From positions 7,670,001 to 7,734,000 of the forward strand of contig NZ_CP069396.1 of the NCBI RefSeq assembly GCF_016887565.1: a stretch of DNA of 64,000 nucleotides. The letters run 5' to 3'. The translations under genes and the position numbers were made by a program. Of the stretch, positions 11,175 through 31,420 are shown one piece after another. How positions within the stretch are numbered: the first letter of the stretch is position 1; the number at the start of each line of letters is the position of its first letter. A model generated the notes under the pieces. The model was not told the DNA's origin, searched no databases, and saw only the letters and a program-made list of their open reading frames with translations. Source of the DNA: Archangium violaceum (GTDB lineage Bacteria > Myxococcota > Myxococcia > Myxococcales > Myxococcaceae).

Positions 11175-11887
11175 GATGTCCGCGGTCGGCGCTCGTCGTG
11201 GATTCGCTCCAGCGTCTCCAGCAACGCCGCCGTATCGAAGGGTTTGGAGAAGATGCCCCTGTGCTCCGGCAGGGTCGACGCCACGTCCGGGAAGGCCGTC
11301 ATCACGAACACCGGCAGCTCGGGGAAGCGCGCCCGCAGCCGGCGCAGCGCCTCGCCGTCCGGACCCCCCGGCATCCGCAGATCCACCAGCGCGGCGAAGG
11401 GCCGAACCGAGGCGAGCTGGTCGGCATCCAGCACCGAGCGCGCGGTGACGCACGAGAAGCCGCGGGAGCGCAGCACCTCGGTGAGGTTGTCGCTGAGGGC
11501 CAGGTCGTCCTCGACGAGCGCCACCAACCCGTCCCGGCGCGCCTGGGACAGCAGCCCCACGAGCAGGGGAATGGGCACGGGCTTGGGCAGCACCGCCAGC
11601 AGCCCCTCGCGCCGGGCCGTCTCCAGGTCGTCTTCCCCGGGGTGGGCGGTGATGACCACGGCGGCGAGCCCCGGATCCACCTTGCGGATGTGGTGCACCG
11701 CCGCGGCTCCGCTCATCCCGGGCATCTTCATGTCCGTGAGGAGCACGTCGAAGTGGCGGGAGCGCGCCAGCTCCAACGCCCGAACCCCATCCGTCACCAC
11801 CGTGGCCTCATCCCCGCCATCCCGGAGGATCTCCGCCAGGTTCTCCGCGAAGGCCTGGTTGTCATCGAGCAGCAGGTAGTTCCTCAT
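11171..11887 (-). CDS. Double receiver-domain protein
   Basis: Two receiver domains make up the whole 238 residues: one at about 1-115 ([21 protein letters not shown]) and one at about 118-235 ([22 protein letters not shown]). There is no output domain. Such proteins relay or compete for phosphate. The gene overlaps its neighbours on both sides by 4 bp, so it sits between the globin-coupled kinase and the receiver-kinase. This supports a three-protein phosphorelay. Confidence 0.9.
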
Positions 11888-13050
11888 GGCGGCACCTGCG
11901 TGGAAGCGGTGGGAAGGGGAAGCCTCAGGACGAAACGCGCGCCGCCGCCCTCACGAGGCGCGTAGGCAATGGAGCCGCCATGGCGCTCGAGGATGCGCTT
12001 GACGAGCGGCAGGCCCAGGCCGATGCCTCGGGCCTTGGTGGTCATCAGCGGCTCGAACATGCGGCGCCGGATGGACTCGCTGACGCCCGGCCCCGAGTCC
12101 TCCAGGTGCAGCTCCACCGCGTCCACGCCCTTCGTCGCCGACAGCGTCACGGAGCCCGCCTCGCCCACGGCATGCACGGCGTTCTCCAGCAGGTTGACGA
12201 AGACCTGGCGCATCTGCCCGGGGTCTCCCTGCAGCGTGGGGAGCTCGGACAGGCGCTCGGCGCGAATGGAGACGCCCGCGGGGACCTGCACCGAGGTGAG
12301 CGCGTCCTTCCACACCTCGTCGAGCCGCAGGGGCTCTCGCTTGAGCGGACGATCGCGAATCATGTCCAGCAGATCCGTGACGATGCGGTTGGCCAGCGCC
12401 ACCTGCTCGCCAATGCGCTCCAGGTGCTTGGCGGCGCGCTCGTCGGTGGCCAGGGGCCGGCCCTTGAGGATGAAGAGCGACGTCTCGATGACGCCCAGCG
12501 GGTTGCGCAGCTCGTGCCCGATGGAGCCCACGAGCTGCCCGAAGGTGGACAGCCGCTCGCTGCGTGCCTGCTGGGCGAGCAGATCCTCCCGGTAGGTGTG
12601 CAGCATGATGGCCACCTCGAGATCGAGGATCTTCCCCAGGGCCGAGCGCGCCGCCCGGAGCGACGCGGGCTGGCCGACGTAGTGCTCGTCGATGACGCGG
12701 TTGAACTCCTCCCGCAGGACGTTCATCGCGCCGAACATGTAGTGCTGGGGCAGCGCGATGCGCACATGCATGCGGCCGATGCGGCAGCGCAGGAGGTAGT
12801 AGTCCTCGTCCCACGGCCCGCGCAGCAGTTGCTCCATCCACGCCTGCAGCGTGACCTTGAGGTGGCCCACCTGGCTCTCACCCGCCAGGGCGTTGCGTGC
12901 GCCCTCGTGCTCCAGGATGCGCGAGTAGAAGACGTGCGCGATGTCACGGAAGTGGGGGCGAGCCACCTCGTGAAGGGCTCGGAGCGCCTGCTCCTCCTCC
13001 GGCCCGAAGCCCACGTACCGTTTCAACTCTTCGAACAAGGTCTCCGCCAT
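11884..13050 (-). CDS. Globin-coupled sensor histidine kinase
   Basis: Residues 1-160 form a sensor globin of the globin-coupled-sensor type: [18 protein letters not shown] contains the pattern I-G-x2-H-x4-L-x2-Y, and His95 is the expected haem ligand. A HisKA domain follows (phosphoacceptor His179 in [11 protein letters not shown]), then HATPase_c ([18 protein letters not shown]). It has no membrane helix, so it should sense O2, NO or CO inside the cell. It is 388 residues from ATG 13050; a TTG two codons earlier is less likely. It is the first gene of a coupled operon with a double receiver and a receiver-kinase. Confidence 0.85.
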
Positions 13051-13337
13051 GTGCAAATGAACTTTTTAGCGCGCTCGAACGCGGAGAACAGCGGGATTCC
13101 CCTGCCCTCCTGCTCGGAACTCAACCAACCTGGGGGTGAAGCAAAAGACCGCTCCGGTGAAGCCCTCTGGGAAGGGCAAGAAACACGCCATCCTCAGCTC
13201 CCAAGGAGGAAAGTCCGGAAGGAGCGCAAGCCTTGCGGCACGGCGGACGGGGGGACGCAGCCTTTGCGCACGCGAGGCTGGACGCGCCCGGCCCCCCCGT
13301 GCAGCCTGGACCTCGTGGTTCCACACAGGAGACGTCC

Positions 13338-13853: not shown

Positions 13854-13867
13854 TGGGAGATTCCCCG

Positions 13868-13891
13868 CCGGGATGGCTCAAGCCATCTCGG
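13868..13891. terminator. Hairpin between convergent genes
   Basis: GATGGCT-CA-AGCCATC, extended by CCG/CGG on the outside, lies between the OmpA-like gene and the unknown gene ending at 13878, and overlaps the latter's stop. It may end transcripts from both sides. No T-run is present. Confidence 0.45.
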
Positions 13892-14312
13892 CGTTGTTCG
13901 TGTAGTAGATCTCGATCGACACCGGACCGGTGGCGAGCTGCGCGATGACGGCATCGGCCACGCGGCCCGCCGCCCAGTGAGTCGCGGCAGGACCCGCGAG
14001 GGCCCGCAGTCCCAGCCCCGCGCTGTTGGGACGAACCAGGCGCTCCACCCAGGAGGCCCCCCGCAGGTAGGCGTGGAACTTCGCCACGTCGGTGGCGATG
14101 TTGTCCTGCAGGTTCAAGTAGCGGTGCGGCGGCAGGCCATCGCGGTTCCCGATGCCGACTCCGGCCAGCGCGTTGGTGAGGACGAGGCGTGAGGCGGTCG
14201 TCCACCCCACGTTCGCATGTTGCAGGGCCGACCAGGCACAGTTGTACGGGGTGGCCTGCGCGATCGCCAGCTCGGTGGTGCTGATGTTCTTGAGAATGAA
14301 GTGTCCCGCCAT
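13878..14312 (-). CDS. Unknown protein (144 aa)
   Basis: I do not recognise the family. ATG 14312 has AAGGAG about 8 nt upstream, which is why the longer open frame to 14762 is not used. The protein has no signal peptide and begins MAGHFILKNISTTELAIAQ. It mixes polar and Ala/Leu-rich stretches with a likely amphipathic helix near 95-125. The gene stands alone between an OmpA-like gene and a lipoprotein gene, both on the other strand, so context gives no hint of function. Confidence 0.65.
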   Translation of the reverse strand: MAGHFILKNISTTELAIAQATPYNCAWSALQHANVGWTTASRLVLTNALAGVGIGNRDGLPPHRYLNLQDNIATDVAKFHAYLRGASWVERLVRPNSAGLGLRALAGPAATHWAAGRVADAVIAQLATGPVSIEIYYTNNAEMA

Positions 14313-14475
14313 GTCACGTCTCCTTCGAGAAGTGGCGACCTCCATGGCCGCCCACTCCCTCCTCGGAGACGACGGAGTCAGCGGCTTGTGACGTGGCCGC
14401 CGAACGGATGAGTGGCGAAGGCGTCTCCGCTCCTGCATCTTGCAGGGTCTCATTTCCACCCAGGAGGCCCTCTCC

Positions 14476-15540
14476 ATGCGTCCACTTCTTCTGATTGCCG
14501 CCGTCCTCACGACGGCGGCCTGTGTCCGAAACGCGCCCTCTGCCGATGCCACCGAACGCTCAACGGGAAACAAGGCCCCGGCCCTCGAGCTCGTGGCCCA
14601 GTCACCGCGGCAGTGGACGGGGATCGCGCTCTCGAAGGAAGGCCGCGTCTTCGTCAACTTCCCCCGCTGGTCCGAGGACGTTCCCGTCTCCGTGGCCGAG
14701 CTGAAGAACGGGCAGGTCTCTCCCTGGCCAGATGCCACCTGGAACGAGTGGAAGCCGGGCACGGCCGAACAGAACCGCTTCGTCGCGGTCCAGAGCGTGG
14801 TGATCGACGATCAGGACCGGCTCTGGGTCGTGGACACCGGCAATCCCTGGTTCAAGGGGGTCATCGCGACGCCCCGGCTCCACCAGTTCGACATCTCCAG
14901 CGGACGGCTGGTGCGCAGCTACGCCTTCCCTCCCGAGGTGTCCTCCGGCGACAGCTACCTCAATGACGTCCGCGTCGACACGGAGCGCGAGGTCGCCTAC
15001 TTCACCGATTCACAGGCCGGGGGCCTGGTGATCCTCGATCTGAAGAGTGGAAGCTCGCGCAAGGTGCTGAAGGATCATCCCTCCACCCATGCCGAGGTCG
15101 ACCACCTGATGGTGCTGGGCCGTCGCTTCAACAAGGCGGTCCAGTCCGACGGGATCGCGCTCAGCACGGATCGCAAGACGCTCTATTGGTCCGCGCTCTC
15201 GGGTCACACGCTCTGGCGCATTCCCACCGAAGCGCTGCTCGACCCCAAGCTCGACGACAAGGCCCTCGCCAGCCAGGTGGAGCGGGCGCACACCATCGTG
15301 GCTCCCGATGGAATCCTCTTCGACGACAAGGGGGTCCTGTGGCTCGGTGGACTGGAGGATGGATCGATCTACCGCTACGTGCCCGGCGGAGCCTACGAGC
15401 AGGTGATCCAAGATCCCCGCCTCCTCTGGCCGGATAGCTTCGCGCAGGGCCCCGAGGGGTGGATCTACGTCACCACCACGCAGATCCACCTGCCGCCCGC
15501 TGAGCGCGGTCCCTACGGCATCTACCGTTTCCAACCCTGA
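14476..15540 (+). CDS. Major royal jelly/yellow-like propeller lipoprotein
   Basis: The 354-residue protein begins with a signal peptide that ends in LTTAAC, a weak lipobox. The body matches the MRJP/yellow six-bladed propeller layout: SVVIDDQDRLWVVDTG, SYLNDVRVD, AYFTDSQAGGLVILDL, DGIALSTDRKTLYWSAL and LLWPDSFAQG. Bacterial members are secreted proteins of unsettled function. AGGAGG lies 8 nt before ATG 14476. It is just left of the RiPP-like cluster but on its own transcript, so it is probably not part of it. Confidence 0.82.
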   Translation: MRPLLLIAAVLTTAACVRNAPSADATERSTGNKAPALELVAQSPRQWTGIALSKEGRVFVNFPRWSEDVPVSVAELKNGQVSPWPDATWNEWKPGTAEQNRFVAVQSVVIDDQDRLWVVDTGNPWFKGVIATPRLHQFDISSGRLVRSYAFPPEVSSGDSYLNDVRVDTEREVAYFTDSQAGGLVILDLKSGSSRKVLKDHPSTHAEVDHLMVLGRRFNKAVQSDGIALSTDRKTLYWSALSGHTLWRIPTEALLDPKLDDKALASQVERAHTIVAPDGILFDDKGVLWLGGLEDGSIYRYVPGGAYEQVIQDPRLLWPDSFAQGPEGWIYVTTTQIHLPPAERGPYGIYRFQP

Positions 15541-15775
15541 GCAGGAACAGCCCTCTATGAGGAGAAAGGGAGCGGAGCGCGCCTGCCGGATATCAGTTAC
15601 ATCGAGCAGTCGCACGCAAAGACTCTCGCCCTGCCCTCCTTCAAGACTCGAGTCGAACAAAGTCAACTACACGGGAGGTCGTGTTCGTGGAAGGGAAGCA
15701 AGAGGTCGGCTTTCACTCCGACGCATGGGCCGAGGCACTCAGCCCGATGACCGCCCCGCCCCAACCATTGAGTGA
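15541..15775. other. Gap left of the peptide promoter, no gene seen
   Basis: This stretch of about 235 bp between the MRJP-like gene and the promoter of the peptide gene shows only weak, unsupported frames. I see no RNA gene, repeat or terminator with a T-run. Confidence 0.5.
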
Positions 15776-15803
15776 TTGACACCAGACGGTTTTTCCCTAG
15801 ACT
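15776..15803 (+). promoter_or_regulatory. Sigma-70-type promoter of the RiPP-like peptide gene
   Basis: A perfect TTGACA (15776-15781) and TAGACT (15798-15803) are separated by 16 bp. Transcription would start near 15810, giving a 60-nt leader before the peptide gene, which has AGGAG just before ATG 15870. Strong promoters of this kind stand out in a GC-rich genome and fit a highly made precursor peptide. Confidence 0.65.
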
Positions 15804-15869
15804 TCGGGGTTGGTTGTCAGCCGACCAATCGAGGGCGAGCGACGACAGCCAGCACCCCAGGAGAACAAC

Positions 15870-16037
15870 ATGTCCGACACCAAGAAGACCAACAAGCCCC
15901 TGCCGAAGCTGCGCCCCATCCTGACCGAGGAGGAGCTGGCGCAGGTGATGGGCTCGAAGGGCACCACCGTGGCGATGGCTCCGCCCGAGCAGTCCCAGTC
16001 TACCGGCGACACCGGCGCGACCGGCTGCCCGGGCTAG
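15870..16037 (+). CDS. Putative RiPP precursor peptide (55 aa)
   Basis: The leader-like N-terminus (MSDTKKTNKP, then LRPILTEEELAQVMGSK) has the acidic LTEEELAQV helix and small-residue end typical of leaders read by LanB-type enzymes. The C-terminus from about Gly31 is rich in Ser/Thr (Thr32, Thr33, Ser42, Ser44, Thr45, Thr48, Thr51) and has one Cys (Cys53). A good promoter lies before it and a strong terminator after it, so it has its own short transcript. A full-length LanB-type dehydratase lies 1.4 kb away. One Cys allows at most one lanthionine ring, so some dehydrated residues may stay open or be changed by the nearby oxygenases. The role is inferred from context. Confidence 0.78.
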   Translation: MSDTKKTNKPLPKLRPILTEEELAQVMGSKGTTVAMAPPEQSQSTGDTGATGCPG

Positions 16038-16058
16038 ACGCAAGCCACCTGCTGTCTG

Positions 16059-16091
16059 GCGCGCGGGACTTCCAGGTCCGCGCGCTTTTTT
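16059..16091 (+). terminator. Rho-independent terminator after the peptide gene
   Basis: GCGCGCGGGAC pairs with GTCCGCGCGC (one bulged G) around a short loop, followed by eight T. It lies 22 bp after the peptide stop and ends a short transcript carrying only the peptide gene. Confidence 0.9.
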
Positions 16092-16143
16092 TTCGACGAA
16101 GCGCAATCGCACCGGTTCGAGCTCGACTCCCCGCGCGGAAGCC

Positions 16144-17352
16144 TTACAGGAACGCGGAAAACACCAGATGGTGACGCAGTGACTCGCACTGCTCGAGCAA
16201 CTGCGGGACAGCGTCTCCCACGGCCTCTTCTCCATACACGCGCCCGAGCGCACGCACGGCCTGTTCGGGGTCATCCCCCACGAACAGACGTCTGGCGAGA
16301 AACGCGCTCACTTCATCCACTTTCAACTCGTCCCGCGGATACGTCGAGAAGCCTTCGATCCAATCAGCAACCACCTCCTGAGGCGACACCTCCGGAAAAT
16401 GGGCGGCAACCGTTTTCAATACGGCCTCACGTCCGGGTTTGATGTGCGCCAATGTCCATAGGAGCCTGGCCATCGAGTCCTTCGCGGCTCGTTTCTCCCC
16501 GAGAATCAGCCGGTCACGCAACCGCACCTTGAACGACTGCATGAAGGTCTGGATGACCTCGCCGAACCGCGCTTCGGCCATCTCGGCCGCACGGACGAGC
16601 TGATCCGCGAACCGATGGCTCGCTTTCGCGAGATTCTCGAGCACCCGATAAACGGTCTCCACGTCGGCCGTCCGAACGAGAGCGAACGCCATGCGGAGGT
16701 ACAGCGGCTCCGAGGTCTCCGAAAGGATCGTCAAGGTCTGGAGCTGGCGCTCGACAAGCGGCTCTCTGTAGAACGGATCCACCGCCACACCAGGAGGACA
16801 ATACTCATACGCGGGGCCTGAGCGCAGCGCAGCGTTCGTCCTCGCGACAAGGACCACCGACAGCTCATCCAATGAGTAGAGCGAATGGATGTCTTCTGGC
16901 GCCTGCGTCGTCAGTGAACCCGGGGTGAGGTTCCGGATTCCGGAGAAGGTGAGGTCCCCCCAGAGAAGATGAGAATTGAAATAGGTCTCGGACCGTTCGA
17001 ACGCGTAACGGGCCTCCAGGCAACGTCCACTCAGTACGCCATACACATCATAGGCATTGGGACGATGGATGGTCGTCACCAGATCGCGCCAGAAGTACAG
17101 GCCAAGGTAGAAACGCCCGGATTCGAAGACGATGAGGGGCGTCTGGTCGAGTCCCGCCTTGAAGTCGCCCTGAGGAGGAAGACTGTCGAGACCTTGCAGC
17201 CAGGTCACATAGTCCTCCAAGGAGAAGTCGCGCACCCAACTGCTTGACCGCCGCAGGGTCTCCACAACGATGTCGGTGAAGCACTGTTCGTTGTAGTTCC
17301 GTGCGTGCCATGCTCGCTGGATCTGTTCGCCCAATTCCTTGAACACCCGCAT
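16144..17352 (-). CDS. Cupin-like protein with a broken metal site (paralogue of 23975-25186)
   Basis: The 402-residue protein aligns end to end with the product of 23975-25186: both share the opening pattern, SLPPQGD, a beta-rich core of about residues 70-170, and a helical C-terminal half. In the paralogue the core has H-x-H and a later His, spaced as in cysteine dioxygenases. Here the second His is Pro (IHRPN, His96/Pro98), while His156 in IHSLYS is kept. It may therefore be a non-catalytic partner or binding protein. It is divergent from the dehydratase gene and points at the peptide gene. The fold is inferred; no function is known. Confidence 0.65.
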   Translation of the reverse strand: MRVFKELGEQIQRAWHARNYNEQCFTDIVVETLRRSSSWVRDFSLEDYVTWLQGLDSLPPQGDFKAGLDQTPLIVFESGRFYLGLYFWRDLVTTIHRPNAYDVYGVLSGRCLEARYAFERSETYFNSHLLWGDLTFSGIRNLTPGSLTTQAPEDIHSLYSLDELSVVLVARTNAALRSGPAYEYCPPGVAVDPFYREPLVERQLQTLTILSETSEPLYLRMAFALVRTADVETVYRVLENLAKASHRFADQLVRAAEMAEARFGEVIQTFMQSFKVRLRDRLILGEKRAAKDSMARLLWTLAHIKPGREAVLKTVAAHFPEVSPQEVVADWIEGFSTYPRDELKVDEVSAFLARRLFVGDDPEQAVRALGRVYGEEAVGDAVPQLLEQCESLRHHLVFSAFL

Positions 17353-17485
17353 GCATCACCTCACACGACCATCCATGGCGTCTACCGTGAGCGACTGGTG
17401 CGGCTCGCGAACGGATTGACCACGGCGATGGATGAACTACAACGTGACCGCCATCGCCACAAGGTAATCCTGGAACCTACTTCCC

Positions 17486-20400
17486 TTGTCCGCCCCTGTG
17501 ACCGCCCCCATGCAGCGCCTCGTTCCCTTGGGACACTTCGTCGTTCGAACGCCACTGCTCGGGTTCGAGGAGCTCGCGGCCAGGGTCGAGGGTGTCGATG
17601 CGGCGTCGCGCGAGTCCGTGTATCGCAAGCGACTCGACGATCTGTTGTCTGTTCCGAGGGTGCGAGAAGCCCTGAGCCTGGGTTCACCAGCACTCAGCGG
17701 GGACATGGATGTCTGGCGGAGTGCACCCGACAGCGGCCACGGACTGAAAGTGGAGCGGGCCCTGGTGAAGTACGTGTCGCGGATGATTGGAAAGCCCACG
17801 CCTCTTGGGCTGATGGGGGGATACACTCTCGGTCAAGTGGGCGGAGAAACCAGGCTCGAGCTCGAAGCCCCCGGTGCCTATCTCCGCCAGAGCCGCCTGA
17901 GCTACGAATACCTTCATCAGCTGGCGGGCGCGCTCTCCAGGACGTCCGAGCTCGAACCAGAGCTCCTCCTCTTCCCAAACACCAGCCTCTACACCATCGC
18001 CGGCTACATTCGATACGTGAGAACGACGACGAGCCATGGCTCGCGTCGGTATGAGTGGGTGGCCCTGGAAGACAATGAGTACCTCCAGCGGGCGCTCCTG
18101 CGTGCCGGGAGTGGAGCGACACGCCAGGAGGTGGCGGAGGCCATCGCGGGAGAAGAAGTGGATGCATCCGAGGCCATGGCGTTCGTCCGAGAGCTCGTCG
18201 CGCTCGAGCTCCTGGTCCCCACCCTGGCACCGCCCCTGACGGCGCTGAATGGGCTCGAGCGGCTGGCGGAGGCCGTTGCTCGCACCTCTTCGGGCAAGCC
18301 CTTCGCTCGGCGGCTTCATTCGGTCAGAGAGGCGCTTGCCGAAATCGACCGGGTGGGCATGAGTCGCGAACCCGCGGGTCATGGCAGGGTGATGAGTCTG
18401 CTCGAACCACTCCCGGCGCCAGTAGACCCACGCCGTCTCGTCCAGGTCGATCTGTTGAAACCGGGCCGTCAGGTGCGGCTTGGCACCGAGGTGGTAGAGG
18501 AGCTGAAGAGGGGAATCACCCTCCTCCATCGCATCGGTGCCTTTCCGCTCCCGATGCCTCTCGAGCACTTTCGAAATGCCTTTGTTCAGCGATTCGGAAC
18601 GCGCGAGGTCTCCCTTCTCGAGGCGCTCGATCCGGAGTTCGGCGTCACCTTCGGGCCCACGGGTGGGCCGGATGACCTCGCGGGTGCCCAGAGGGAGGAA
18701 CGCTCCTCGGAATGGCATCGGGCCATGGAGGCGCGGGAGGACTACTGGCTCGGCAGGATCACCGACGCCCTGCGGCGAGGTCTTACCGAGCTCGAGCTCA
18801 CGGACGCTGAGATTCAGGCGCTCCCTTCGTCCGCTCCTCCCCCACTCCCTTCGCTGATGACCGTCGTCGCCGCCGTGGCCGCTCGTTCCAAGGAGGAGCT
18901 CGCGGCAGGACACTTCCGGATCCGGCTGGATCATGTCAACGCAGGGGGGCGGCTTCTCTCACGAGCCGCCCATCTGTTCCCAGAGCTGCGAGAAGAGCTC
19001 CGAGACGCGCTGTCCCGCGAGGAGCTCGCGTCCCCCGGTGCGGTCCATGCGGAGATCGTCCACCTTCCGGGAGGCGCGGTCGGAGACATCGTCGCGAGAG
19101 AAGCGCTCCACGAGAGGGAAATCGTCTTTCTTGGCCAACCGAGCGCTCCTCCCGAGCACCAGATTCCGGCTTCGGATCTCAGGGTATCGGTGGTTGGAAC
19201 GCGGATCGTCCTTCGCTCCGCCCGGTTGGGACGCGAAGTGATTCCAAGGCTCTCCAATGCCCACGACTATTTCGGTTGGAACCTGGCGGTGTATCGGTTC
19301 CTGGCGACCTTGCAACACCAGGACTCGACCTCCGCCCTGGTCTTCAACCTCGGGAGGATGAGACGTGCCCGCTTCGTTCCGCGAATCGTCTCGGGACGGC
19401 TGGTTCTCTCCGTCGCCCGGTGGACGGTCTGGCGGGAAGACCTGGCCCGAGCAGCCGGCGACGAGGCTGGGGGCTCCTCGGAAATCGAAAGACTGAGGAC
19501 CACACTCCGACTCCCCAGGTTCGTCTACCTGGAAGAGAGCGAAGGCCCTCTCTTGATGGATCTGGACAATCCCCTGTCCGCCGAAATCCTGCGACGGGCG
19601 ATCAACAAAGAACCCAGCACCACCCTGACGGAAGTCTTCCCCAGTCCCGAGGAGCTGAGCGTCAGGGACAGGGAGGGGCGCCACTTCAACCATGAGCTGT
19701 ACGTACCGTTCATGACCGCGGCCGCCGCTCCGTCCCGGCCACGGGCTCTGGTACAGGCGGGCGCATCACGGACGGCTCCGCGATCGCATCTCCCTGGTTC
19801 GGACTGGCTCTACATCAAGCTCTACACCGCACCGATGTTGTTGGACCCCGTGCTGAGCCGCTTGGCTCCCGTGATCGCTCGGGGCCGGGAGTCCGGGGTC
19901 ATCGACCAGTGGTTCTTCGTTCGTTACGCGGACCCCGAGTGGCATCTCCGCATCCGGTTCCACGGAACGCCTTCGCGAATCCGCTCGGAGCTCCTCCCGC
20001 TCCTCGAAGAAGCGGCCGGAAGCCTGCACGCGTCGGGTCAGCTCTGGAGGCTTCAATACGACACGTACGAGCAGGAGCTCGAACGCTACGGTGGCCCGGA
20101 GGGAATGGCTTGGGCGGAGAAGGTCTTCCATCGCGACAGCGAATTCGCGCTTGCCGCGTGCGCACTGAGCGAGGATGGCGGCGAGAGCTCCCAGCGATGG
20201 TGGGCCGCCTTGCGCGCCACGCATGCGCTCCTCGTGGATCTGGGATTCGATCTGGGTGAGCGCTGGGAGCTCGCGAAGGGACTGAAAGACGAAGCCCTGT
20301 CCGGGATGAGCCATGAGCTGGCCCGGGAAGTGCTCTCCCATCGGTACCGCCAACTTCGCGCCACCGTGCAACAGGTGCTCGAATCCGAGGACGCGGGCGG

Positions 20401-20653
20401 ACGGTTCGACCTGGCCATCCTGGAGCACCTGAACACGCGCTCCGAGCGGCTTCGCCCTCAAGTGGAATCAGCTCGACGAGAGGCAGCCGCACAGAACTGG
20501 AGCATCCGCGCACTGGCGGGCAGTTGCGTTCACATGCAGCTCAACCGGCTGCTGCCGCGAGACGTGAAGGCGCGGGAAGCGAGCATCTACGACTTCCTGG
20601 CCAGGTACTACGGTTCCGCGCTGGCCCGGAAGCCCGAGGAGCGACAGGCTTGA
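17486..20653 (+). CDS. lanB: LanB-type lantibiotic dehydratase
   Basis: The 1055-residue protein has both LanB halves. The N-terminal glutamylation domain (about 10-760) opens with VPLGHFVVRTPLL and has SRMIGKPTPLGLMGG, a variant of the usual R-x3-R-x-T-P-F-G block with Lys for the second Arg and Leu for Phe. The C-terminal elimination domain (about 770-1050) has WLYIKLYTAP, FFVRYADPEWHLRIRF, ELERYGG and CVHMQLNRLL, keeping the Arg, Glu and His expected for glutamate elimination. Such enzymes dehydrate Ser/Thr in peptides using glutamyl-tRNA. The start is uncertain: TTG 17486 or ATG 17510. It converges on the five-gene operon. Confidence 0.92.
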   Translation: MSAPVTAPMQRLVPLGHFVVRTPLLGFEELAARVEGVDAASRESVYRKRLDDLLSVPRVREALSLGSPALSGDMDVWRSAPDSGHGLKVERALVKYVSRMIGKPTPLGLMGGYTLGQVGGETRLELEAPGAYLRQSRLSYEYLHQLAGALSRTSELEPELLLFPNTSLYTIAGYIRYVRTTTSHGSRRYEWVALEDNEYLQRALLRAGSGATRQEVAEAIAGEEVDASEAMAFVRELVALELLVPTLAPPLTALNGLERLAEAVARTSSGKPFARRLHSVREALAEIDRVGMSREPAGHGRVMSLLEPLPAPVDPRRLVQVDLLKPGRQVRLGTEVVEELKRGITLLHRIGAFPLPMPLEHFRNAFVQRFGTREVSLLEALDPEFGVTFGPTGGPDDLAGAQREERSSEWHRAMEAREDYWLGRITDALRRGLTELELTDAEIQALPSSAPPPLPSLMTVVAAVAARSKEELAAGHFRIRLDHVNAGGRLLSRAAHLFPELREELRDALSREELASPGAVHAEIVHLPGGAVGDIVAREALHEREIVFLGQPSAPPEHQIPASDLRVSVVGTRIVLRSARLGREVIPRLSNAHDYFGWNLAVYRFLATLQHQDSTSALVFNLGRMRRARFVPRIVSGRLVLSVARWTVWREDLARAAGDEAGGSSEIERLRTTLRLPRFVYLEESEGPLLMDLDNPLSAEILRRAINKEPSTTLTEVFPSPEELSVRDREGRHFNHELYVPFMTAAAAPSRPRALVQAGASRTAPRSHLPGSDWLYIKLYTAPMLLDPVLSRLAPVIARGRESGVIDQWFFVRYADPEWHLRIRFHGTPSRIRSELLPLLEEAAGSLHASGQLWRLQYDTYEQELERYGGPEGMAWAEKVFHRDSEFALAACALSEDGGESSQRWWAALRATHALLVDLGFDLGERWELAKGLKDEALSGMSHELAREVLSHRYRQLRATVQQVLESEDAGGRFDLAILEHLNTRSERLRPQVESARREAAAQNWSIRALAGSCVHMQLNRLLPRDVKAREASIYDFLARYYGSALARKPEERQA

Positions 20654-20680
20654 TTCGAGCCTGCCACCCTCCCCCTCTCC

Positions 20681-22774
20681 TCAACGGTTCTGGAGGAGCA
20701 ACCGCTCTTCGTTCCAGGTGAGCCCATATCGAAGCATCGCCTCGGCGAGTCCCGTCTGTATCGGCGGTGGATGAGCGAGGTCGTCGAACTTGATCAGGCG
20801 GATCGTCTTGTCGGCCCCCGCCGAGGCCAGGGCCGACATACCGGGCGAGAATGAGACGGCGGTTGGCATTCCTTGATGGCCAGCGCTCCTGCCCATCAGC
20901 TCCCCGGAAGGAAGGCTCCAGACCTTGACCAGCAGGTCCATTCCACCCGAGGCCATGAACCTCCCATCCTGTGACATGCCAATGGACAGAGCTCCGACAG
21001 CCCCCTCGTCCAGCGCTTTCACCAGGCGGCCGTCCATGGCATCCCAGATACGAATGGGTTGATTGATGCCCGCCGTCACCAGGCGGTTGTCGGAGGGGGT
21101 GAAGGCAACCGCTCGGACCAGCCCCCCCGTGTCGAGCTGGAGAATCTGCTGACGGCGATTCAAATCCCAGAGGCGCACGGTGTTGTCCGCGCCGCCAGAT
21201 GCGAGACGATTCCCCGCTGGCTCGAAGGCCAGGGACCAGATTTTTCCCGTGTGACCCGTGAGCTGACCGAGGACGGAGCCAGAGGGCAGCGACCAGAGGA
21301 GGATGTCGCGATCTCCGCCTGCCGCGAGGGACTTCCCATCCGGAGCAATGGCCAATGCGCGAACGGACCCGGTCACGCCGGACAGGGCGAGCAACTGCCG
21401 GCCAGAGCCTGCCTCCAGGACACGCACCGTCCCATCCAGTCCGCCCGCCGCGATGAGCTTGCGATCCGGGCTCACCGCGAGGGAGGAGATCCCCGTTCCG
21501 AGCGAGCGCGGCTCCAGGGCGTTCCCTTCCGGGAGGCTCCACAGGCGCAATCCATCCTCCCCGCCCGAGACGAGCGCCTGGTCCTCTGAAAACGCCAACG
21601 CCTCCACCCAGACCTGGTGTCCCCGAAGGATCACTTCAGCGGGAGTCCTGGGCCGGGACCAGACGTGCAACGAGCCATCCCGTCCGCCTGAAGCAAAGGT
21701 GAGCCCGTCTGGAGACAAGGCGACCGTCATCGCGAACGAGCGATGTGCATCCAGACGCTCGAGGAGCTCGCCACTGCGCGCATCGAAGAGCTGAATGCGC
21801 CCATCCCACCCCGCCTGGACGAGGAGCCGGAACTGGGGATCGATGATGGTGGCCGAGACGCCGCTCTGGATTCTCAGGACATCGAGGAGCTGTCCGGACC
21901 GGGTGCTCCAGAAACGGACCGTGCGGTCGGCAGCCGCGGTCATGATCCGCTGTCCATCGGCGGAGAAGGCCCCCGACTCCACCTTCTCTTCGTGTCCGAC
22001 GAGGCGGTGGAGCTCCGTGCGCGCACCCAGATCCCAGACCCGGGTACTCCGGTCCATGCTCGTCGAGAGCAGGTGCCTTTCATCTCCGGAGAAAGCGACG
22101 GAGATCGCGTACTCGTCGTGCTCGAACCGCATCCGCTCGGTCCCGGCGCCGACGTCCCAGACGCGGACCGTCTTGTCCACGCCACAGGAAGCCAGCATCT
22201 TCCCGCCGGGCGAGAACGCCAGGCCACGCACCACGTCCGAATGGCCTTGGAGCAAGGCCACCTGCCTGCCTTGACTCGAGTCCCAGATGCGGATCTCCCC
22301 CGGCCGGCCCGCGGAGGCCAGCAGTCGGCCGTCCGGGGAAAAGGCGACGGCATGTACCTCGGCTGAATGGCCCTCGAGCTTCGCCAGCAGCTCTCCGCGG
22401 CTCACATCCCAGAGGCGAATGACGGAATCGGTTCCCGCCGAAGCAAGCACCCGGCCATCCGGGGAGAACGTGGCGGTGAGAACGGAGCCCTCGAATGTCT
22501 TCGTCCACAATCGGGTGGAGGCACGGCTCCTCGCCCAGGCCTGCCCCCACTGCGCCGCCAGCGAGTCCGTCTCCATGCGGGCGGCCGCGAAATAACCCGC
22601 CGCCAGACCCCATTGCCGCGATTCGGCCGCCGCGTCACCCTTCGCCAGGTAGATTCGCGCACGCAGGCTCCGCTCGGTCGTGCCCGCCCCGGAGACTTCA
22701 CCGGCGGGCCGGAGGGCCGAGCAGGAAGCCAGCAGCAGCGCCAGGCCCACCCAACCCAGCGGCCGAGCCCTCAT
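20681..22774 (-). CDS. WD40-repeat lipoprotein
   Basis: The 697-residue protein begins with a lipoprotein signal ([13 protein letters not shown], Cys18). After a helical stretch of about 80 residues it holds roughly 13 or 14 WD40 repeats (for example [21 protein letters not shown]), enough for two seven-bladed propellers. It should be an envelope scaffold. Its ATG overlaps the stop of the 2OG oxygenase gene by 4 bp, so it is translationally coupled to the modification operon. A WD40 lipoprotein is unusual in a RiPP cluster and might serve in export, immunity or envelope attachment; none of these is shown by the sequence. Confidence 0.88.
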
Positions 22775-23946
22775 GTCAGTTCCTCGGTGAACGACCCCGG
22801 AACGAAGTGGAAGAAGATGGAGATCGAGCGTTTCCCGGGAGAGAGGGCATTGCGCCAGTGGGCGATCTCCCGTCCCTTGTAGATGACCGCATCCCCGATC
22901 GCGAGCCGTACCCCGAGGCGATCCTCCCCGGTGGGGGAGAGCCAGAGCGGCCAGGAGCACTTCCCCTCGGGCCGGGGAAGGAAGTCGACCAGGAGGGAGA
23001 TCGTGAACTCGCACTGAGGGCGGTCCACATGCCGCTTGAGCACCGCGCCTGGCATGTACTCCGCGATGTAGCAGTACGAGGGCTTCACCGGGCAACCCAC
23101 CAGAGAGGCCACGAAGGGCGGGAGCTGCCGGTGCAGGAACGAGGTCACGGTCTCTCCATGGAGGACGTGCCTCAACGGCACTTGACCGTCACCCGCCTTG
23201 AGGAACCCCTGGGCGCGCAGCTCCCGGAAGTACGTGGAGAGCGCGAGGCAGAAGGAGCGGGAGAAGAGACCTTCGACGATGGCGTACCCGTGCTCGCGAA
23301 AGGACCGGCGCTCGTCCGAGCTGGGACCGGCGGGCGACTCCCGTGAATCGGACCGGGGCAGCAGAAGACCCGCCGCCTCGAGCTCCGCGACCAGCGCGGG
23401 CGGATACCGGCCCTGACGTGCCTCGGAAGAACCAGACAACCGGCCGAGGAGCTCGCGGTGGCGTGCGCCCAGATGCACCGGGACCAGGACCCCCGTCCTG
23501 CGTTCCGGAACCCAGGCCAGCGAATGCTCGGAGGAGAGCCGCTCTCCGAGCTCGGGGTCCTGTTCGGAGCCAAGGACTTCCTCGCGCCCTCCGAACCGGG
23601 CCGCCGGGTTCAACTGGAGAGCGCCCGCGGGAGCGGCGCGGCGGGGCGCACGGGTGAGCCCACGCTTGGGGAGGTGCATCAGTTGCACACTCCGGGACAC
23701 CTCTCGTGGAGGAACGAAGATGCCAAGCCGTCGAAGCGCCCGCTCGTGCGCGTCGGTGAGCTCGACATGCCCCGCACCGGTCCGGCCCAGCAGGCGCTCG
23801 AGCAGCTCGAAGAGCTCGCGATGACGCGCCCGCGAGATGATCTCCCCTCGCAGGCCACGACCCTTCACTGGCGCGGAAATGGCGTATGCGGGCCCCTGCT
23901 CGTCGATCGGCGTGATGCGCAGATTCGGATTCAGGACGAGGTCCAT
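22771..23946 (-). CDS. 2OG-Fe(II) oxygenase with an extra N-terminal domain
   Basis: The C-terminal half of this 391-residue protein is a 2-oxoglutarate/iron oxygenase: His306-x-Asp308 in LKRHVDRPQ and His363 in EIAHWRNAL form the iron triad, and Arg about 10 residues later fits 2OG binding. Residues 1-205 are not part of the usual fold and look like two similar helical units ([14 protein letters not shown] and [12 protein letters not shown]), perhaps for substrate binding. Its job may be hydroxylation of the peptide product. It lies 28 bp after the cupin gene and overlaps the WD40 gene. Confidence 0.82.
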
Positions 23947-23974
23947 CGATCGTTTCTCGCTTGTTGAAAGGCGC

Positions 23975-25186
23975 TCAACGCTCTTGAAGGAGGGGCGCCA
24001 GAATCGGATGAGCTCGCAATTGAGCGAAATGCCTCAGCAACTCCTGACGCTGGTTGTCGATATCCTCCGGGGAGAACGTCTCGCCGAGAGCGCCAAGAAC
24101 CTTCTTGTCGTCCAGCCCCAGGATCATCAGCCGAACGATTTCCCCATTCAGCTCGTCGAACTCGACTCCCATCATCAGGCGTTCTCCAAGCTCGGAGACC
24201 CACTCCGCGGCCTTCTGCCTCGGGTCGGCATCGGGGAACCGTTGACGGATCATCTCGAAGATCGCGCTTCGCTCGGGAAGGACGAGGAGCAACGCGAGGA
24301 AGAAGCGATGACTCGCATCGGTAATGCTGCTCCGCAGACTGACGATGGCGCGGTCGCGCCGCTGCTGTGCGAACACCGCGTCGAAAGTCGAAGTCACCTC
24401 GCCATGCCGCCGGCTCGCCAGGGAGAGCGCCTCGTCCCAGAAGGGGCGCTCGGGGGCGATCTCCGCGAGTTGCTGCAGCACGAGGAAGGTCTCGTGTAGC
24501 CCGGCTCCCTCGAGGAGGGAGCGGGTCCATCGCTGGTGTTCGGCGGGCCGGGTCCTGGCCAGGAACTTCAGATACTGGAGCCGGCGGACCATCAGCGGAT
24601 CGCGAACGAAGGGATACACCGCGATGGACGGCCGATGGTGGTCGAGCTGTGGCCCCTCGGAGCCGGAGCCCACCGTGCGCACCACGATCGAGATCGAGGG
24701 GAAATCGAGGTGGAACAGCGAATGGATCAACCCCCGCCCCGTGATTCTCCTGATGTCACCGCGGCGCAACAACTCCACCTGCTGCAGGGCGTGCGTCCCC
24801 ACGAGGAAATGCGGATTGATGGTGTGGGTGGGCGTGAACTGGTAACGGGCGTGAACGCTCGAGCCCTCGAGGACGGAAAAGGCACCGAAGAACCCATGCT
24901 CGTGGATCGAAGTCGTGCCCACGACCCAGTGCAGCAGTTGGATGAGCAACCGCCCGTCATTGAAGACGACGAGTGTGGGTTCCCCGAAGGCGGAGGAGAG
25001 ATCGCCTTGGGGTGGAAGGCTCGCCGCCGACATCAACCAGCTCGCCACCTGGTCGACGTCGATGTGTTCGTGGCATTGCGCGGCCCGCAGGAACTGTTCG
25101 GCTATCTGGGGAAGGGCATGCTCATCATAGCTGGCGGCAGACCACGCCTCGTCAATCCGTTGCCCCAGCTTCTCGAAGAATTGCAT
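23975..25186 (-). CDS. Cysteine-dioxygenase-like cupin protein
   Basis: In this 403-residue protein a core of about residues 70-170 has IHEHGFFGAF (His95, His97) and IHSLFHLDF (His155). The His-x-His plus distal His about 58 residues later resembles the three-His iron site of cysteine dioxygenases. The rest is mostly helical and matches no family I know. It is 12 bp after the ATP-grasp gene, so it is co-transcribed. A full-length paralogue with a broken metal site lies at 16144-17352. Substrate unknown; oxidation of the peptide's single Cys is one testable idea. Confidence 0.65.
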   Translation of the reverse strand: MQFFEKLGQRIDEAWSAASYDEHALPQIAEQFLRAAQCHEHIDVDQVASWLMSAASLPPQGDLSSAFGEPTLVVFNDGRLLIQLLHWVVGTTSIHEHGFFGAFSVLEGSSVHARYQFTPTHTINPHFLVGTHALQQVELLRRGDIRRITGRGLIHSLFHLDFPSISIVVRTVGSGSEGPQLDHHRPSIAVYPFVRDPLMVRRLQYLKFLARTRPAEHQRWTRSLLEGAGLHETFLVLQQLAEIAPERPFWDEALSLASRRHGEVTSTFDAVFAQQRRDRAIVSLRSSITDASHRFFLALLLVLPERSAIFEMIRQRFPDADPRQKAAEWVSELGERLMMGVEFDELNGEIVRLMILGLDDKKVLGALGETFSPEDIDNQRQELLRHFAQLRAHPILAPLLQER

Positions 25187-25198
25187 GTTCTACACACC

Positions 25199-26812
25199 TC
25201 ACTGGATGTCCAGCGGAGACGAAACGGGTTGCAATTTCCCTTCGGCGTTGAGGGTCGTGCGGCTCACGATGGGATACCGCTTGGAGAAGAGCGCCTCGTC
25301 ACCCGCGAAGATCAGCCTGGGCTCGAGGTGGCTCGGCATTCCGTGCTCACGTACGCCGTCCTCCGTGAGCCAGATGAGAAACGCCTCGGCCCGCTGATCC
25401 GTCAGGAGAGGAAGCCAGCCGTCCGAGGACAGCGTGCCGATCCTCCCCTCTGGCCACCGTTGGAGAAAAGCACTCTCGAGCTCGGCCCGCGCGAGGGTGC
25501 CCCGATCGGCCTCCTCGGTCATCGCCAGCCAGACTGGCACCTTGCCTTCTTGCTCGATGAATCCGGGGACCATCTCCACGAATCCCACCAGCTCATGGTC
25601 CGCCGCGGCGGGCTGATCTCCCCGGAGGTAGGTCACTCCACACGGAGAATTGATCTCCAACACAGCGCCACCCTCGGAGAGAGGAGCACCCTCGTCACGC
25701 AGGATGACATCGATCCCCGCGCTCGGCTCCCCGAACCGCTCCAACAACCGCTCCAAGGCTTCGCGATCCGCTGGATGCAACGCCTCCAACGGAGCCTTTT
25801 CCATCTGCTCACCCGCGGCGGCCGAAACGCGCAGCCGGGCCCCAGCCTCCGGAATCACACGCGAGAGATCCGCCATGGACCGGATGCCATATCCCCAGAG
25901 CTGTTGCAGCAGGCGCTGCTGCTGAATCAGCAGCCGGTGTGCTCGCCGGTGCAGCTCGGGTTGATCCCGCTGGAGCAATTCGTCGATCGTGCTCACGCCA
26001 TCCCCCGTGATCACTCGAGGGTTGGCTCGAAACACGCGGAACAGCTTGCCCCCGATGAAGTGGAGTCGGAGCTCCACTCCCTCCAACATCCGTTCGACCA
26101 GCAGGAAGTCGGAACGGAAGAATTGTTCCGCCGCGACCGCCAGATCGGCCGCATTCTGGATGCCCAGGATGACGGACTCGGAGTTCCCTCCAGAGACGGC
26201 CTTCAACGCCACCGGATACCCAAGGGACTCCGCCCGCTCGAGGAGATCCTCCTTGTTCAAGGACAGGAAGCCGGGAGCCACGGGAATTCCCGACGTCTTG
26301 AGCAGGTCCCGCCCAAAAGCCTTGTTCGTTCCCGCCAACGTCAGGATGCCCGAGACACTCTGATCCAGGTTCATGCTGATCAGACGGCAATGACGCCCGA
26401 TCCCCAGATAGAGGGACTGAAAGCGGCCGAGCAGCACGGGCAGCGACACCCAGCGCCGATAATCCGCGAGGCGGCGATACAGGCCGTACCCCACGGTGTA
26501 GACGTAGCTGTCGTGCGCGATGGGCAGCAGTCTGCGCTGCACGCGATCGGTGTCTTCGGGGTTCAGCGCAAGCACCCTGGAGAGCAGGGCCGGCGAAAAA
26601 AACGGGTAGACGCCCGCGTACACATGCGTGATGCCGTCCCCCTCCGGTTCGAGCGTCAATGGCTCTCCCAGGTTGGGTTCCACGATGAGGCGGTGCCATT
26701 GCGCGGTCACGGCTTCGATTTCGGACTCCGAAGCCGACAACCATGCATGCATGAGGTCCGTGCCCGGCGTGAAGGACACCCCTTGATGAACGACGATTCT
26801 CGAGACCCTCAT
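25199..26812 (-). CDS. ATP-grasp ligase, cyanophycin-synthetase-like
   Basis: This 537-residue protein has a central ATP-grasp domain of about residues 150-430: GTNKAFGRDLLKTSGIPVAPGF, FLLVERMLEGVELRLHFIGGK, VITGDGVSTIDELL and AVLEINSPCGV follow the order seen in cyanophycin and glutathione synthetases. These form amide bonds using ATP. The N-terminal 150 and C-terminal 100 residues are not recognised. The ATG overlaps the DUF6445 stop (TAATG), so translation is coupled; the longer frame to 26959 is rejected. It may add an amino acid or close a ring on the peptide product; substrate unknown. Confidence 0.82.
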   Translation of the reverse strand: MRVSRIVVHQGVSFTPGTDLMHAWLSASESEIEAVTAQWHRLIVEPNLGEPLTLEPEGDGITHVYAGVYPFFSPALLSRVLALNPEDTDRVQRRLLPIAHDSYVYTVGYGLYRRLADYRRWVSLPVLLGRFQSLYLGIGRHCRLISMNLDQSVSGILTLAGTNKAFGRDLLKTSGIPVAPGFLSLNKEDLLERAESLGYPVALKAVSGGNSESVILGIQNAADLAVAAEQFFRSDFLLVERMLEGVELRLHFIGGKLFRVFRANPRVITGDGVSTIDELLQRDQPELHRRAHRLLIQQQRLLQQLWGYGIRSMADLSRVIPEAGARLRVSAAAGEQMEKAPLEALHPADREALERLLERFGEPSAGIDVILRDEGAPLSEGGAVLEINSPCGVTYLRGDQPAAADHELVGFVEMVPGFIEQEGKVPVWLAMTEEADRGTLARAELESAFLQRWPEGRIGTLSSDGWLPLLTDQRAEAFLIWLTEDGVREHGMPSHLEPRLIFAGDEALFSKRYPIVSRTTLNAEGKLQPVSSPLDIQ

Positions 26813-27408
26813 TACCGGGCTTCGTTGAAGAAGAAGAGCTGTGTGAGACGCGCGTTCTCGATGTGATCGCCGAACGAATTCGCCTGGGAATGGAAGAACT
26901 GGCCCCGGAACAGTATCAGCCTGTTGTACTTCATCGGGAGGAAGAAGGACTGCGTCCACCGATCGCGGTGCATCCCTTCCTGGACCACGAAGTAATCCCA
27001 GACCGTCTTGCCCTCGAGAAGCGAATAGATGTCGAGGACTTCATCTCGGGTCGGCCACTTCTCCAACCCGGTTTCATTGTGCCGCCAGAAGCAGGTGCCG
27101 CCCTCGCACTGCTCCGGGGGATTCAAATAGAGAATGCCCCCCCAGTCGCAGTGGTCGACATGGATGTCCATCGAATGCTGCTCGTTGGCGGCTCGAAAAG
27201 CGAAGCGCCCCGTCCCTTCTGGAGCCGCGGGGACGAGGGGTACCCCGAGCAACCTGGAGATCTGCTCGATCTCGGGCGTCGTGGCCCTGAAGTCGGAGTA
27301 CAGCCCGGTCGAGTTCAGGTTCCGGTACTGGGCACCAAGCGCCTCGCGTCGCTTGCTATCGACGTCGGGGCAGAAGTCGTCCACGACCAAGAAGGAGATT
27401 TCCGGCAT
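26812..27408 (-). CDS. DUF6445 protein (2OG-oxygenase-like fold)
   Basis: This 198-residue protein matches the DUF6445 pattern: DIHVDHCDWGGILYLNPPEQ with a His83-x-Asp85 pair, GGTCFWRH, and a distal His173 in LFRGQFFHSQ. The H-x-D...H order suggests an iron site in a jelly-roll fold, but the family has no known reaction that I can cite. It is the first gene of a five-gene operon, with a TATAGT -10 box upstream. Together with the 2OG enzyme and the cupin it gives three possible iron enzymes in one cluster. Confidence 0.75.
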   Translation of the reverse strand: MPEISFLVVDDFCPDVDSKRREALGAQYRNLNSTGLYSDFRATTPEIEQISRLLGVPLVPAAPEGTGRFAFRAANEQHSMDIHVDHCDWGGILYLNPPEQCEGGTCFWRHNETGLEKWPTRDEVLDIYSLLEGKTVWDYFVVQEGMHRDRWTQSFFLPMKYNRLILFRGQFFHSQANSFGDHIENARLTQLFFFNEAR

Positions 27409-27467
27409 CGGGTGTGATCTGGAGGGGGGACTGGAGCTTGCGTCAGCAACGCTCTGTTGGCTTTCCG

Positions 27468-27473
27468 ACTATA
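27468..27473 (-). promoter_or_regulatory. Probable -10 box of the modification operon
   Basis: TATAGT on the minus strand lies about 60 bp before the DUF6445 start, as TGCTATAGT (extended -10 style). No clear -35 hexamer is seen at the usual distance, so an activator may be needed. Confidence 0.4.
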
Positions 27474-27522
27474 GCAAGGAGGTCGCGAGGTACGATACGA
27501 GGACGTGAGGGCTCGTCTTTCA

Positions 27523-27567
27523 TGGAGCCGACACCCGGATTCGAACCGGCGACCTACGGATTACGAA
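27523..27567 (-). pseudogene. 3' half of tRNA-Thr(CGT) (attachment-site-like remnant)
   Basis: Read on the minus strand, the 45 nt run from the anticodon loop (TTCGTAA, anticodon CGT) through the variable region and T-arm (GCCGGTTCGAATCCGG) to the acceptor end GTCGGCTCCA. The 5' half of a tRNA is missing: nothing upstream pairs with the anticodon stem or acceptor. Fragments that start in the anticodon loop are typical of sites left by tyrosine-recombinase elements. The plus strand here translates to the familiar GFEPATYGLR artefact of tRNA regions. Confidence 0.75.
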
Positions 27568-27607
27568 GAGTGGAGCCCCTTCTGGTCGCCACCGTAACCC
27601 ACTGGAA

Positions 27608-29131: not shown

Positions 29132-29225
29132 CCCCCAAGTATCAAAGAGCGACGGGCCGGATGGATGAAGTCCTGGGTGGGCAACCGACCGCCCCTCTGA
29201 GGCGGCCTTGACGCCGATGCGTCTG

Positions 29226-29250
29226 AGATATATCTAAGCAACATCTAGAT
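29226..29250 (+). promoter_or_regulatory. Probable PadR operator and promoter region
   Basis: Two perfect short palindromes, AGATATATCT (29226-29235) and ATCTAGAT (29243-29250), lie about 30 bp before the PadR start, with TTGACG at 29208-29213. The AT-rich palindromes overlap the expected -10 region. PadR proteins usually repress their own operon through such sites. Confidence 0.6.
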
Positions 29251-29279
29251 AGCTCTTACGGGGCTCGAAAGGACGCACC

Positions 29280-29834
29280 ATGCGAGGCAGACACGGAAGA
29301 AGGCGGGACGAAGCAGATCACTGGCAGAGCGAGCGGGATGACCACAGGGGACGGCATGGACATGGCGGGCGCCACCGCATGTTCGAGGGCGGCGAGCTGC
29401 GCCTCGTCCTGCTCCACCTCATCGCCCAGGAGCCCCGCCACGGTTACGACCTGATCCGCGCGATCGAAGGGCTCAGCCGCGGCGAGTATGCACCCAGCCC
29501 AGGGGTGGTCTATCCGACGCTCACCCTGCTCCAGGACATGGGCCTGGTCGGCGAGCCGGATACCAACAACCAGCGCAAGCTCTTCTCCATCACGGAGCAA
29601 GGCCGAGCGCTGCTCAGCGAGAACGCGAAGGTCGTGGAGGCCCTGCTCCAGCGGCTCGGGGCCGCCGCGGAGATTCGCGAGCGGACTGACGCCGCCCCGG
29701 TCCGGCGCGCCATGCACAACCTGAAGAGCGTGCTGTTCGACACGCTGTCGGCCGGCGCCGACAAGAAGATCGTCCTCGAAGTGGCGGCCCTGATCGACGA
29801 GGCCGCGCAGAAGATCGAGAGGCTCCGCTCATGA
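29280..29834 (+). CDS. PadR-family transcriptional regulator
   Basis: The 184-residue protein has an Arg/His-rich N-terminal tail (1-33, with many His that could bind metal), then a PadR winged helix (about 34-110: LRLVLLHLIAQEPRHGYDLIRAIE, YPTLTLLQDMGLV) and a C-terminal dimerisation helix. It represses genes until a ligand binds. Its stop overlaps the start of the siderophore-interacting protein gene by 4 bp. That pairing is common and suggests iron or siderophore control. Palindromes just upstream suggest self-regulation. Confidence 0.9.
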   Translation: MRGRHGRRRDEADHWQSERDDHRGRHGHGGRHRMFEGGELRLVLLHLIAQEPRHGYDLIRAIEGLSRGEYAPSPGVVYPTLTLLQDMGLVGEPDTNNQRKLFSITEQGRALLSENAKVVEALLQRLGAAAEIRERTDAAPVRRAMHNLKSVLFDTLSAGADKKIVLEVAALIDEAAQKIERLRS

Positions 29835-30325: not shown

Positions 30326-30355
30326 GCAAGTATCCAAAGGGAACGGAGCCGTCGC

Positions 30356-31408: not shown

Positions 31409-31420
31409 CCGCTCACCCCG

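Follow-up and report, generated by a model that had tools for sequence, protein, structure and literature searches.

A precursor-like peptide with a single cysteine in a LanB gene module without LanC from Archangium violaceum

The first lanthipeptide to be characterised from the Deltaproteobacteria belongs to class II and came from Archangium violaceum, and the accessible part of that report describes no efficiently modified class I product (PMC9576775). LanB-type enzymes also occur without a cyclase, as the available text on the pearlins (PEARL) describes (PMC11002830). A published mining survey took LanC as its starting point (PMC7268733), and surveys of this type cannot find clusters such as the one considered here. 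The open PMC subset yielded no description of a comparable cluster, and no paper in it joins cysteine dioxygenase, RiPP and lanthipeptide.

We analysed a 64,000-nucleotide stretch of the A. violaceum genome (contig NZ_CP069396.1), which is called the window below. The peptide encoded at 15870-16037 is very probably the precursor for a gene module that occupies positions 15760-27487 and consists of the following features.

15776..15803, plus strand: promoter-like site TTGACA-16 nt-TAGACT of the precursor gene (10 of 12 consensus matches; mean of 0.0 in shuffles)
15870..16037, plus strand: precursor peptide, 55 residues (from ORF translation, relatives, the shared module and the alignment of three sequences)
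16058..16093, plus strand: terminator-like hairpin and U-run, 3' of the precursor gene (folding energy compared with shuffles)
16144..17352, minus strand: U402a, 402 residues, a paralogue of U403b (30%) in which the second His of HxH is missing
17486..20653, plus strand: predicted LanB, full length, up to 1055 residues from TTG (ATG at 17510 possible), with Lant_dehydr_N and Lant_dehydr_C
20681..22774, minus strand: WD40-repeat protein with a lipoprotein-like start, its ATG overlapping the oxy391 stop
22771..23946, minus strand: oxy391, 2OG-Fe-oxygenase-like by residue spacing (H306-x-D308...H363...R373 in the C-terminal half)
23975..25186, minus strand: U403b, 403 residues, with a predicted N-terminal thiol-dioxygenase (CDO) fold containing His95, His97 and His155, and a helical C-terminal half
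25199..26812, minus strand: ATP-grasp protein, 537 residues from ATG at 26812, with cyanophycin synthases as its nearest solved relatives
26812..27408, minus strand: DUF6445 protein (PF20043), 198 residues (E 2.6e-8, 34.5 bits against a cut-off of 24)

The frame at 15870-16037 on the plus strand translates to MSDTKKTNKPLPKLRPILTEEELAQVMGSKGTTVAMAPPEQSQSTGDTGATGCPG, followed by a stop. All of the residues named in the preliminary description (Thr32, Thr33, Ser42, Ser44, Thr45, Thr48, Thr51 and Cys53) are found at these positions. Cys53 is the sole cysteine of the peptide; therefore, the earlier limit of at most one lanthionine follows directly from the sequence. The peptide is laid out as a leader of approximately residues 1-31 (consensus KPLPKLRPILTEEELAxVMG), a variable stretch (residues 32-45) and a conserved tail (residues 46-55, GxTGAxGCPG). 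The TTGACA of the promoter-like site is found at the aligned position in both relatives described below, and the ribosome site CCCAGGAGAA directly 5' of the ATG is common to all three genomes. The precursor gene and U402a converge, and the terminator-like hairpin is located between their ends. Its stem-loop (16058-16086; −20.3 kcal/mol, z −2.5) was equalled in stability by 3 of 200 shuffles and is followed by a U-run. A consensus terminator scan did not include it among the sites listed, and a GC-rich inverted repeat is visible at the same position in both relatives. Judged by these predicted signals, the precursor gene is its own expression unit. A chance ORF was ruled out by the relatives, pN/pS and the signals, and the precursor gene is real.

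Relatives of the peptide were found in two other genomes among 96 of the family (its own included). One belongs to the same genus (G004; 93% identical, E 2.9e-29), and the other was found on a contig (G020; 64% identical, E 1.4e-18) that is letter-for-letter NZ_RAWB01000186.1 of Corallococcus llansteffanensis CA051B. The next match in these genomes had an E of 0.059 and reads as noise. No second copy exists in the peptide's own 13.2 Mb genome, where the next match had an E of 1.76. An exact-pattern scan of a contig collection gave no match, with patterns that would miss the C. llansteffanensis relative as well. Aligned to MSDTKKTNKPLPKLRPILTEEELAQVMGSKGTTVAMAPPEQSQSTGDTGATGCPG, the two relatives read MSDTKKTNKPLPKLRPILTEEELAQVMGAKGSTVAMAPPEQSQSTSDTGASGCPG and MSENTKAKKPLPKLRPLLTEEELARVMGARGNAVILEPPETSKEVGGTGAMGCPG.

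This alignment holds only three sequences, two of them 93% alike, and among the seven core Ser/Thr positions it retains Ser or Thr in all three peptides only at Ser42 and Thr48. The other positions vary (T32, T/S/N; T33, T/T/A; S44, S/S/E; T45, T/T/V; T51, T/S/M). Pro38, Pro39, Glu40, Gly49, Ala50, Gly52, Cys53, Pro54 and Gly55 are invariant. For the whole peptide, pN/pS between the window and C. llansteffanensis was 0.23/0.36; the values were 0.14/0.29 in residues 1-31, 0.35/0.45 in residues 32-55 and 0.14/0.47 in the final ten, all from small counts. At both ends of the peptide (the leader and the final ten residues), pN is thus smaller than in the stretch that separates them. The part kept by selection appears, from this comparison, to be Ser42 together with the GxTGAxGCPG tail. 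The preliminary description proposed an alignment of homologous peptides to look for conserved Ser/Thr and Cys53. The alignment agrees for Cys53, Ser42 and Thr48 and disagrees for the other five Ser/Thr residues, and the notion of seven conserved dehydration sites was rejected. The expectation that many dehydrated residues would stay open is weakened accordingly, since selection apparently does not maintain a product of that kind. A collagen-like Gly-X-Y character of the tail was also considered (Gly49, Gly52 and Gly55 in all three peptides, Gly46 in two); three repeats are too few for this assignment. An MxPPE motif shared with the precursor at another LanB locus (L099) was noticed by eye and is too short for use.

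The precursor is co-conserved with an eight-gene module. In tblastn searches, the precursor, U402a, LanB, the WD40-repeat protein, oxy391, U403b and the ATP-grasp protein were present in both related genomes, and the DUF6445 protein is an eighth gene that is present in both as well. The module is therefore found in three genomes of two genera. Absence of related peptides next to LanB in other genomes had been named beforehand as a refutation; it did not occur, because the same module with LanB is present in the two relatives. Between the window and the genome of the same genus, a single collinear block spans 15760-27487 with 92-94% identity, its left edge lying 16 bases upstream of the promoter-like site. 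The flanks (13854-15759 and 27488-31413) had no match at E 1e-10 in the fetched DNA of that genome. Matching resumes beyond them; therefore, the block occupies the same chromosomal position in the two genomes. On the left side of the C. llansteffanensis copy, the contig ends. The five minus-strand genes from 27408 to 20681 form a tight run in which neighbours overlap or nearly touch, with overlaps between the ATP-grasp start and the DUF6445 stop and between the WD40 start and the oxy391 stop. A remnant of the module, in which only oxy391 (its C-terminal part) and the WD40 gene survive, was observed on a 6.9-kb contig (L174:4436-6949; G025:C409). To the left of the module, a gene similar to major royal jelly protein/SMP-30 (14440-15540) lies within the stretch unmatched in the fetched DNA of the genome of the same genus, and a protoglobin fused to a histidine kinase is encoded at 11884-13056.

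Neither U402a nor U403b matched a family in Pfam or NCBIfam, and a PDB profile search with U403 returned only chance-level matches. The AF2 model of U403b, computed from 14 rows, had a mean pLDDT of 81.7 and displayed a CDO-type cupin fold, with a best Z of 15.5 to B. subtilis CDO (4qm9; rmsd 2.7, 143 aligned, 15% identity). All of the best 50 VIA-align rows for its N-terminal half were thiol dioxygenases. Foldseek also ranked thiol dioxygenases first, followed by hydroquinone dioxygenase, CA_C3497 and gamma-carboxylase chains. His95, His97 and His155 form a putative three-His metal site. The HxH pair occurs in 11 of the 14 family rows and is absent in the three U402a rows, and the later His is retained in all 14; U402a is a probable catalytically dead partner of U403b, as far as these residues indicate. 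The accessible text of PMC10966181 names a Ser-His-Tyr triad for the CDO family, and its SxHxY motif was found in 0 of the 14 U403-family rows. U403b had no sequence match to CDO profiles, and hhalign detected nothing between U403 and six CDO domains of the same genus. With neither a CDO sequence match nor SxHxY, thiol oxidation by U403b is a guess from the fold and the His residues.

Across 195 genomes of the phylum, the U403 family gave 18 matches in 14 genomes. A full-length LanB was present in the fetched stretch at 12 of these, and one (L108) had a LanB C-terminal-domain protein instead. The remaining five had no LanB in the fetched stretch, three of them lying where a contig ends or on a contig of 3.8 kb. 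Six U403 loci have LanC as well as LanB nearby, and the cores contain several Cys where a precursor was seen. The family is therefore not tied to a single Cys: the U402a/U403b pair goes with LanB peptides as a whole, and we infer that it is connected to Cys53 here. A U403-family scan of the contig collection found only the C. llansteffanensis contig (L080) and missed U403 genes detected in the phylum genomes; it is no evidence of rarity. Several other gene arrangements were observed around these families. At L108 (958-9599; G020:C1110), the U403 gene and the LanB C-terminal-domain protein are accompanied by two HpaB-like frames (one scanned), a Cupin_8 gene and more oxygenase-like genes, and no full LanB was seen. 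At L100 (12163-17517; G035), tandem LanB frames (one of full length, one of ~775 residues) and then LanC stand beside a U403-family gene. A PF05995 cysteine dioxygenase and an apparent ABC transporter ATPase share one frame at L111-L116 (own copy, G000:C1:11981947-11982324); this frame was found in all 6 genomes of the genus, the ATPase part being read from sequence.

Among solved structures, the ATP-grasp protein matched cyanophycin synthases best (E 2.4e-19; long frame, residues 175-440). The best NCBIfam models were of the cyanophycin synthetase and D-Ala ligase types, all below the cut-off; an MvdC/MvdD model was found neither in Pfam nor among the best 25 of 28 NCBIfam matches. Only 4 of the 195 phylum genomes contain a match to this protein, the fourth with 30% over part of the length. 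For oxy391, there was no match in Pfam or NCBIfam, the PDB profile search gave only chance-level matches, and the structure model (pLDDT 38.9) was too poor for use; therefore, the oxygenase assignment rests on the spaced residues only. Six phylum genomes have an oxy391 match, two of them partial. The WD40-repeat protein begins with an LLLASC sequence, which we take to be a lipoprotein-like start motif.

A cousin of this arrangement, which looks like a hybrid RiPP cluster, was found at L161 (G042:C11 ~166490-182000; L175:490-11600), where LanB, an oxy391 homologue (31-33%) and a true MvdC/MvdD-like ATP-grasp protein occur together with YcaO, TfuA, three JmjC_2 proteins and a radical SAM/SPASM protein. 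No LanC was found there. The oxy391 homologue keeps the HxD and the distal His and does not keep R373. The precursor of this locus has 55 residues, is free of Cys and ends in AIPISSNTGGDVVWGY; BLASTP at E <= 100 gave no alignment with the module precursor. The combination of LanB, an ATP-grasp protein and an oxy391-type protein, as annotated from sequence, occurs twice, with different ATP-grasps.

Both domains of the module LanB were matched strongly (PF04738, E 1.2e-130; PF14028, E 2.1e-59), and the claim of a precursor-like peptide near a LanB is borne out by this full-length enzyme. Together with its two orthologues, it forms a deep clade of its own (support 1.0; FastTree, midpoint rooted, 57 of 58 LanBs, a second, shorter one at L157 being left out). 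Among 169 near-invariant columns of the 54 other LanBs, 128 are conserved throughout this clade, and at the other 41 one or more of its members differ. Residues were mapped to NisB by a profile alignment, counted by hand and numbered from a fragment starting at 17645. Y43 (NisB Y80), R46 (R83), T52 (T89) and D269 (D299) are kept, as are the elimination-domain positions E813 and R814 (E823/R826 motif) and H963 (H961). However, K50 stands for NisB R87 and S86 for D121 in all three copies, whereas the other family LanBs have R in 54 of 54 and D in 53 of 54 at these positions. Because of such departures, the activity of the enzyme may be changed or lost. In the accessible text of PMC4341554, NisB Y80F and H961A wholly lost dehydration in vivo, R87A was partial with 4-7 dehydrations still made, and D121A was near wild type; E. 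coli work cited there found dehydration abolished by Ala at either R87 or D121. The E. coli results and the uniform substitutions favour a rival reading in which a LanB with an altered glutamylation site transfers another amino acid or performs another reaction, leaving the product undehydrated. The in vivo results argue against this, as do the mildness of a change to Lys and the retained elimination domain, and we regard it as very improbable. Dehydration by the module LanB is likely, with altered activity possible, as judged from its residues, and the enzyme represents a natural test of the roles of NisB R87 and D121.

No LANC_like match was found in the module; therefore, even a single lanthionine is uncertain. 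The genome contains six LANC_like matches, the nearest ~280 kb from the module in an open frame of 1087 residues. Its two other full-length LanBs are each adjoined by LanC, and two further LanB-like frames at 5.13 Mb are weak matches with no LANC_like match near either. The two LanCs elsewhere would allow a conventional class I lanthipeptide containing a single methyllanthionine, in which Dhb48 is joined to Cys53 by a distant LanC or spontaneously and the other genes are accessory. Thr48 and Cys53, invariant and six residues apart inclusive, fit this, and LanC loci whose precursors have a single Cys and 6-7 Ser/Thr in the core do exist (L137, L143 and L147), in precursor lists that are pattern-derived, with pattern-set core borders and chance rows included. 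However, among the 50 other LanB loci fetched out of 64 matches, 42 have LanC nearby. The module leader also lacks the KKLxLxKETLR box common in other LanB-locus precursors of the family, and the LanB stands in its own deep clade; we regard this conventional class I reading as unlikely. NCBIfam had no match for the two precursors tried, nor a class I match for the L099 and L100 precursors beside LanB and LanC. The eight loci without LanC in the fetched stretch suggest a different outcome, a linear dehydropeptide with Cys53 free, or used for metal binding or a disulfide. Six of them have a Cys-free, Ser/Thr-containing precursor candidate (L128, L132, L134, L148, L153 and L161); the candidate at L126 contains Cys, and L159 gave no recognisable one. 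Genes at these LanC-less loci, as at U403-family loci, the remnant and the cousin, were called simply from codon-position G+C, start and ribosome site. LanC loss is spread over several separate branches of the LanB tree. With such LanC-less loci, some of them with Cys-free precursors, open dehydro peptides may be common in the family. However, the precursors of the other LanC-less loci have another type of leader, oxy391, U403 and the ATP-grasp were not found beside them except at L161, and five of the seven Ser/Thr vary here. We therefore consider a linear product quite improbable for this module. L132, L134, L153, L148 and L128 carry several Thr-rich, mostly Cys-free precursors with the KKLxLxKETLR leader, up to six at L132, which are candidate linear dehydropeptides in their own right. 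A precursor at the LanC-less L134 also has one Cys and 6 Ser/Thr; with those of L137, L143 and L147, it indicates that a single Cys taken alone is not new.

The reading we lean towards is that the gene at 15870-16037 specifies the precursor of a peptide that LanB dehydrates without a LanC in the module and that is then tailored by oxidation, mainly at the GxTGAxGCPG tail. The leader would present the C-terminal part to the module enzymes. The module LanB probably dehydrates the precursor, and it would modify only a small number of residues: Thr48 above all, with Ser42 as a possible second site. Cys53 could then be a substrate of U403b, partnered by its probably inactive paralogue U402a; that Cys53 ends up oxidised is rather unlikely. 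Alternatively, Dhb48 and Cys53 might be joined into a single thioether ring of six residues in the absence of a LanC of the module's own, which is slightly more probable but still less likely than not. Cys53 may also stay free or react in another way. The oxygenase-like oxy391 and the DUF6445 protein might hydroxylate or oxidise the tail, and the ATP-grasp protein might add or close an amide or ester. X-Pro-Gly is the target of collagen prolyl 4-hydroxylases; Pro54 in this context is a guess at a hydroxylation target. In its most specific form, the module would define a new LanB class without LanC, in which a remodelled LanB makes one or two dehydro residues, the dioxygenase and its inactive twin turn Cys53 to a sulfinic acid or a derived product, Pro54 is hydroxylated and the ATP-grasp protein adds a link; this is rather improbable as a whole. 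If the thiol-dioxygenase-like pair does act on a peptide Cys, this would add a new kind of tailoring to LanB peptides.

Compared with the known systems, the module shares with class I lanthipeptides a small leader-core peptide and a two-domain, full-length LanB, and it differs from them by the missing LanC, the other leader, the one Cys, the thiol-dioxygenase-like pair and the ATP-grasp. It resembles the pearlins in having a LanB-type enzyme without a cyclase; however, these have a short LanB with only the glutamylation-like domain and a Cys-free precursor, according to the accessible text of PMC11002830, whereas the module LanB contains the elimination domain (PF14028, with the E823/R826 and H961 positions kept) and its precursor contains Cys. 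As in graspetides, an ATP-grasp stands beside a short precursor, but it is cyanophycin-synthetase-like and not of the MvdC/MvdD type by the matches given above. Because a defining feature of each was looked for and not found, the module cannot be classed as a class I lanthipeptide, pearlin or graspetide system. U403b has the fold, in its N-terminal half, and the three His of the thiol dioxygenases, and it differs from them by the absence of SxHxY and of a sequence match and by an extra helical half of ~200 residues. The parts of the module are of known kinds, and it is the combination of genes, not the one-Cys core, that is new.
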